Made by a program: the position numbers and the translations under genes
The notes under the pieces: generated by a model
The model's input: the letters and a program-made list of their open reading frames with translations, nothing else
Told to the model about the DNA's origin: nothing
The model's database searches: none
Part shown: piece after piece, positions 63,561-64,000 of the stretch
How positions within the stretch are numbered: position 1 is the stretch's first letter
Layout: each line of letters begins with the position of its first letter
Assembly (NCBI RefSeq): GCF_034522235.1
Contig: NZ_JAXHLN010000002.1
Coordinates: forward strand, 1-64,000
Source of the DNA: Thiohalophilus sp.
GTDB taxonomy: Bacteria; Pseudomonadota; Gammaproteobacteria; UBA6429; Thiohalophilaceae
Direction of reading: 5' to 3'
Length of the DNA stretch: 64,000 bases

Positions 63561-63627
63561 AGCTAACGTTTAAGTTAAAGGGCGCCGCGCTTTTTTGCAG
63601 CGTCCATTTTTGAACACATTGTTATGT
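63561..63627 (-). mobile_element. attC-like recombination site (integron cassette end)
   Basis: Read on the minus strand, ACATAAC (63621-63627 complement) and GTTAGCT (63561-63567 complement) take the place of the outer R boxes RYYYAAC and GTTRRRY. GTGTTCAAAAATGGACGC inside one end and AACTTAAACG at the other match imperfectly when folded, with GCGC/GCGC in the centre, as attC sites do. Length is 67 bp. The site begins 3 bp after the stop codon of the cassette gene, the usual position. One base in each R box departs from the consensus. Confidence 0.78.
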
Positions 63628-63630
63628 ATT

Positions 63631-64000
63631 TTAATGCATTTCATTACTTAAATAATTAAATATATGCTCTACTTCGTAGTTGTTAAATATTTCATCAAAA
63701 TATTGTATATATCCATTTATCTCGTTTAAGGTTAAGACTTTAACGTGTTTAAACTCTTCTTTAGGCTTAATTTTTGTCATTACAATAACATTTCTGATCG
63801 GTATTCTTGTGCTGCCCCAATGATGGCGAACCAGATTAATATTTGACTCGCTATTTAACAACACAAATAACGCATAACTAGTTCTTGATATTTGTTTTAC
63901 TGGAGACCTTAGGTCTAGATTGTTTATTGATTTTTTGCTTCAATTCTTGGTTTCAAGAAGAAAAATTCCCGATTTGCTAATTAATAGGTGATCTATTTGA
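63631..64000 (-). pseudogene. NERD-domain gene, interrupted by TGA, partial at the window edge
   Basis: The minus-strand frame runs from beyond 64000 to the TAA at 63631. It reads QIDHLLISKSGIFLLETKN, then TGA (63940-63942), then SKKSINNLDLRSPVKQ, SYALFVLLN and VIVMTKIKPKEEF. This follows the NERD (nuclease-related) domain, in which ETKNW is usual, so the TGA stands at the place of a conserved Trp. TGA is a normal stop elsewhere in the window (metH, aroG). AT-rich composition sets it apart from all neighbours. Either a single-base nonsense change or a sequencing error. Confidence 0.75.

Follow-up and report, generated by a model that had tools for sequence, protein, structure and literature searches.

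The 64,000-base stretch of DNA analysed here (the window) ends, on its right, in a leftward gene followed by an attC-like site, and the question is whether this site marks the edge of an integron and, if so, of what kind. The window is the start of a 524-kb contig in a genome of 3.06 Mb in three contigs; window and contig coordinates are the same, and the interval L017 corresponds to contig 62001-82000. We are highly confident that a small chromosomal integron with six cassettes, complete in its parts, has its distal end at the window edge (Table 1). The integron itself is ordinary; what appears to be new is the branch of integrases to which its IntI belongs, together with the attI site.

Table 1. 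Features of the integron in contig coordinates, from the distal end of the array to the integrase gene
Feature	Position	Strand	Basis or remark
attC of sixth (last) cassette, distal array end	63561..63627	-	covariance model, 18 bits
Cassette 6, whole	63567-64593 (in-window part 63567..64000)	-	attC + boundary match
Broken NERD-domain gene of cassette 6, in-window 3' part	63631..64000	-	PF08378
attC5	64588-64647	-	covariance model
Cassette 5 gene	64649-65257	-	
attC4	65279-65350	-	covariance model
Cassette 4 gene	65358-66245	-	
attC3	66268-66372	-	covariance model
Cassette 3 gene	66377-66895	-	
attC2	66918-66998	-	covariance model
Cassette 2 gene	67005-67370	-	
attC1	67392-67478	-	covariance model
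Cassette 1 gene	67480-68364	-	
attI with two palindromes	about 68372-68435		between intI and cassette 1
intI	68518-69924	+ (divergent from cassettes)	TIGR02249 456-462 bits, cut-off 265

An Rfam search with the focal attC gave no match, and its folding energy was not above that of shuffled sequences (z -0.81); a covariance model was therefore built from the attC sites of other genomes. For this model, 19 sites from other genomes' arrays were aligned with the standard attC pairing as the structure, and the training set was free of any sequence from the genome studied. A search of the genome with a simple attC pattern had been empty, and two purpose-written scanners had recovered only three of the six sites, missing the focal one; the covariance model was used in their place, on the window and the next 38 kb. 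The focal site scores 18 bits (E 0.07 over 104 kb), the lowest of six values on the - strand that otherwise stand at 42, 39.3, 38.2, 34.2 and 25.4 bits, and it is the sole match with E <= 10 in the window. Thus, the attC-like site proposed in the first-pass annotation was recovered by an independent model, and its expectation that intI and further cassettes would lie to the right of 64000 was borne out by an intI gene and five further - strand attC sites; the attC scan and the rightward search had been set beforehand as tests, and both succeeded.

On the - strand, the focal site reads ACATAACAATGTGTTCAAAAATGGACGCTGC-AAAAAA-GCGCGGCGCCCTTTAACTTAAACGTTAGCT. Its boxes are R'' ACATAAC, L'' GTT-C-AAA (with the typical extra base relative to L'), L' TTTAAC and R' GTTAGCT, and the recombination point is a GTT with its G at 63567. 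Because it has the lowest score of the six and a weak predicted fold, the site may be a poor substrate.

The six attC sites, 60-105 bp in length, span 63.56-67.48 kb, and the GTT points from attI outward are at 68378, 67398, 66924, 66274, 65285, 64594 and 63567. In an integron cassette, the first bases at the 5' end and the R'' box of the cognate attC are expected to be complementary. This complementarity extends over 10, 9, 6, 4 and 7 bases in cassettes 1, 3, 4, 5 and 6, respectively, as determined by script, and over 10 bases in cassette 2, which was read by eye (the script took the wrong AAC); the 7 bases of cassette 6 are at the boundary GTTATGTG. The product of cassette 1 (294 aa) begins with a hydrophobic stretch and matches no family, that of cassette 2 is small and lipoprotein-like, resembling BamE weakly and below the cut-off, and cassettes 3 and 5 encode a DUF4468 protein (E 2e-20) and a VasI-like protein (E 3.4e-16), respectively. 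The cassette 4 product (295 aa) is an orphan, with no relatives in 95 related genomes or in plasmids.

An AT-rich leftward gene ending 3 bp before the attC had been described at the window edge. The spacing is as described (the site begins 3 bp past the stop codon at 63631), but the gene is broken rather than intact. Its frame extends beyond the window, as far as about contig 64523, and matches the NERD domain (PF08378, E 1.7e-9) on L017:1943-2332; it is interrupted by an in-frame TGA at 63940-63942 and a frameshift near 64325-64335, and the 77-aa ORF at 63631-63864 is the 3' tail of the broken gene. The frameshift may be a sequencing error, since it lies near runs of A. PADLOC identified no known defence gene or system among the cassettes; there was one weak match (E 0.024) to RmrA in the NERD tail.

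Taken as a whole, the integron consists of intI reading rightward, attI and then six leftward cassettes, each with a terminal attC, inserted between rimO and a membrane-protein gene. By the covariance model, all six attC sites are on one strand (-), oriented away from intI. Of the two possibilities raised at the outset, an array terminus or a cluster without integrase, the former stands, as the next genes are chromosomal, and the latter falls, as intI is present: it lies about 5 kb to the right of the focal attC, and the array is therefore not a CALIN (an array with no intI near it). An integron integrase acts on the folded strand of a circular cassette's attC, which it joins to the double-stranded attI by recombination. 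Because cassettes enter at attI, the oldest tend to sit furthest from it, here at the window-edge end.

Could the attC-like site nonetheless be an inverted repeat that arose by chance, or the transcription terminator of an ordinary gene? A folding energy within the range of shuffles and the silence of Rfam would suit such a reading, yet the site is the one match of an independent attC model in 64 kb and the last of six sites in line with attI and intI; the array and the integrase gene contradict it, and we regard it as extremely improbable. How the integron came to be at this position is a separate matter, on which a genome of the same genus (G001) bears directly. The genes to the left of the focal site had been taken for ordinary chromosomal ones, and rightly so, as G001 has them too, without the integron: there, rimO is followed by approximately 130 bp and then by the membrane-protein gene that here sits to the left of the array. 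About 7.2 kb (L017 1482-8721, comprising the array, attI, intI and a DUF4160/DUF2442 gene pair) are absent at this spot in G001, which also lacks an IntI. The boundary of the insertion is only approximate, since the intergenic DNA of G001 and that of the genome studied cannot be aligned. The absence of the block from an otherwise conserved locus could be taken to mean that the block is a mobile element that came in recently, and not a long-standing resident of the lineage. However, gain here and loss in G001 fit equally well, many of the sampled family members have long IntIs, which also group in the family, and neither transposase nor plasmid genes were recognised in the integron stretch; recent arrival is thus unlikely in our view. 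The DUF4160/DUF2442 pair lies between intI and rimO (contig 70017-70644; L017:8017-8644) and is missing from G001 along with the integron.

The first-pass annotation had also suggested looking for a tyrosine recombinase with the integron-specific patch, and the intI product fits that description: in addition to its TIGR02249 match, it aligns to IntI4, a protein of known structure, over 312 residues and through the IntI-specific added region. The reading frame has no stop, and R282, K307, H413, R416, H439 and Y448 are invariant among relatives. Its predicted function is the excision and insertion of cassettes. The protein is 468 aa rather than the usual ~330 aa, however, and the TIGR02249 match begins only at residue 155. 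IntI matches were found in 71 of 144 relatives, many of the best being as long as the 468-aa form and others in the same family ~330 aa. Long IntIs are also present in Thiocapsa, a Desulfobacterales MAG and Verrucomicrobia/Kiritimatiellia MAGs; several adjoin attC sites and thus behave, by context, like true integron integrases. In a tree restricted to the core that long and short forms share (37 long and 22 short sequences), all of the long IntIs fall on one side of a single branch (SH-aLRT 99, by a quick method). Among 274 genomes sampled across the class, 34 have the N-terminal domain, mainly as part of 400-520 aa frames or in fragments. In related draft genomes, contigs (L069, L071, L074, L078, L079) often break off on the array side of intI, no more than a few hundred bases from it; thus, arrays of the long-IntI clade are likely undercounted in draft assemblies.

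According to structural modeling, the extra N-terminal ~105 aa form a second core-binding domain. Their helices in the full-length model (residues 5-20, 24-39, 51-62 and 69-87) are repeated in the canonical domain (149-161, 166-182, 193-205 and 211-228), with an offset of 142 for the last three of the four. Because a structure search with the complete IntI model gave no test of the N-terminal domain, this domain was also folded alone (pLDDT 90). Its best structural match is IntI4 residues 1-96 (Z 10.3, 3.6 A over 96), followed by XerA (10.1) and an archaeal Xer (10.0), and the first 38 matches are all tyrosine-recombinase core-binding domains; an arm-binding fold is not among the matches listed, although the domain could have such a fold. 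Helical domains can reach high structural scores by chance. The structure matches are uniform, however, and there is also a match in sequence, to Pfam SAM_4, by 22 of 31 N-terminal domains on their own; chance likeness is therefore unlikely. A profile comparison of the N-terminal and core-binding domains was only suggestive (P 0.011). In the open-access literature, we found no published description of an IntI that is extended at its N-terminus or has its core-binding domain duplicated.

The attI sites of the long IntIs have a layout of their own. In the genome studied, the GTT point at 68378 lies in GTTAGCGCTC, which matches the R'' box of the first cassette over 10 bases, in a CTGTTA context that is conserved in relatives. 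Going from intI to the cassettes, the attI sites of long IntIs contain a palindrome, 26 or 27 bp, a palindrome, ~6 bp and CTGTTA; the two palindromes here are GGCAGATTCTGTC ... TACAGATTCTGTCTAAATCACTGTTA. Self-similarity of attI across 30 loci peaks at spacings of 27 (0.437) and 26 (0.343), with a background near 0.24. Direct repeats at a spacing of 26 or 27 (at least 10 of 13 bases identical) number 21 among 40 long loci vs. 1 among 31 short ones, where one locus can count at both spacings and a few long loci are near-copies of each other. The palindrome sequence varies by genome (CAGATTCTG, GGAGAATCTCC, CGACATGTCG and CGGACGGCCG are examples), and the two copies within a genome match at 0.67, compared to 0.49 in cross-genome pairing with equal offset freedom (0 of 2000 shuffles); neither these nor the repeat counts are independent events, because related genomes share sequences. 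Some long-IntI loci have no clear palindromes. A LexA-box reading of the palindromes was tried and set aside, with one LexA-like match near attI, containing a mismatch, among chance matches. Three short IntIs of the same family (L139, L140, L141) have one longer palindrome, approximately GGACCC-N4-GGGTCC, directly before CTGTTA; palindromic attI sites are therefore not limited to long IntIs.

What might the added domain do? From the sequences, we infer, as the likeliest of the readings considered, that the duplicated core-binding domain may bind the paired attI palindromes as accessory sites, and that this binding would give the integrase its address on attI. We tentatively extend this to a broad IntI branch, in which the duplicated domain would read a doubled palindromic attI address, address and protein would evolve together, and attC would still be recognised in a general way; this is quite possible, though somewhat short of an even chance. 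If true, every such integron would have its own insertion address. Alternatively, the palindromes could be operators, bound by a separate regulator or by IntI in self-repression, for the intI and cassette promoters, with the extra domain serving another purpose such as attC handling or synapse assembly. They do sit between two divergent transcription units, a common place for repressor sites, and each has its inverted arms only 0-1 bp apart, a compact form that differs from a recombinase core and its 6-8 bp spacer. Variation by genome while both copies match fits, however, a binding partner encoded next door; moreover, the second palindrome overlaps, with its right arm, the L box expected beside CTGTTA, and the single LexA-like match near attI is imperfect and falls among chance matches. 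We consider operators possible, though less likely than not. The extra domain and the palindromes could also be two traits inherited together, because the link between them rests on one clade. With an added, putatively DNA-binding domain and a matching pair of sites that vary together, this IntI clade would make attI recognition directly testable by domain and site swaps between genomes.

Knowledge of how IntI recognises attI is lacking (PMC4792948), and integron integrases are grouped with the simple recombinases, which have no extra domain beyond a core-binding and a catalytic one (PMC8138268). As far as we could check in the open-access literature, the long-IntI branch with paired-palindrome attI sites is undescribed. 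The integron resembles sedentary chromosomal integrons such as that of Vibrio cholerae in its divergent intI, the attI in between and the leftward array bounded by attC sites, as well as in being chromosomal and carrying mostly unknown cassette genes; it differs from the V. cholerae integron in having only six cassettes, attC sites of the lengths given above, an integrase with an extra core-binding domain and an attI with paired palindromes. Class 1 attI1 has two accessory integrase-binding direct repeats (DR1 and DR2) upstream of the core (PMC8946536, PMC4792948), which favour attI x attC recombination and are absent from V. cholerae attIA (PMC8946536). Paired repeats are shared with IntI1/attI1, but here each repeat is a palindrome whose sequence depends on the lineage, and the core-binding domain of the integrase is present twice. 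Among tyrosine recombinases, the arm-binding ones of phages and ICEs have an extra N-terminal domain and accessory sites beside the core (PMC8138268). The long IntIs are similar in having a domain before the core-binding and catalytic domains, and putative accessory sites; in their case, the extra domain is modeled with a core-binding fold.

The genome contains a second cluster of seven attC sites (- strand) at C2 164465-175489 (L110:4465-15489), ~95 kb from the integron. This cluster is a CALIN, with no second intI over the family cut-off. Most of its internal ORFs have no obvious function, and a tyrosine recombinase-like ORF of 347 aa (L110:5400-6443) lies within it, antisense to its cassettes. 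Isolated attC-like matches occur at C3:1363260-1363334 (L096:1501-1575; 35.1 bits) and C3:176907-176993 (L098:1501-1587; 31.9 bits).
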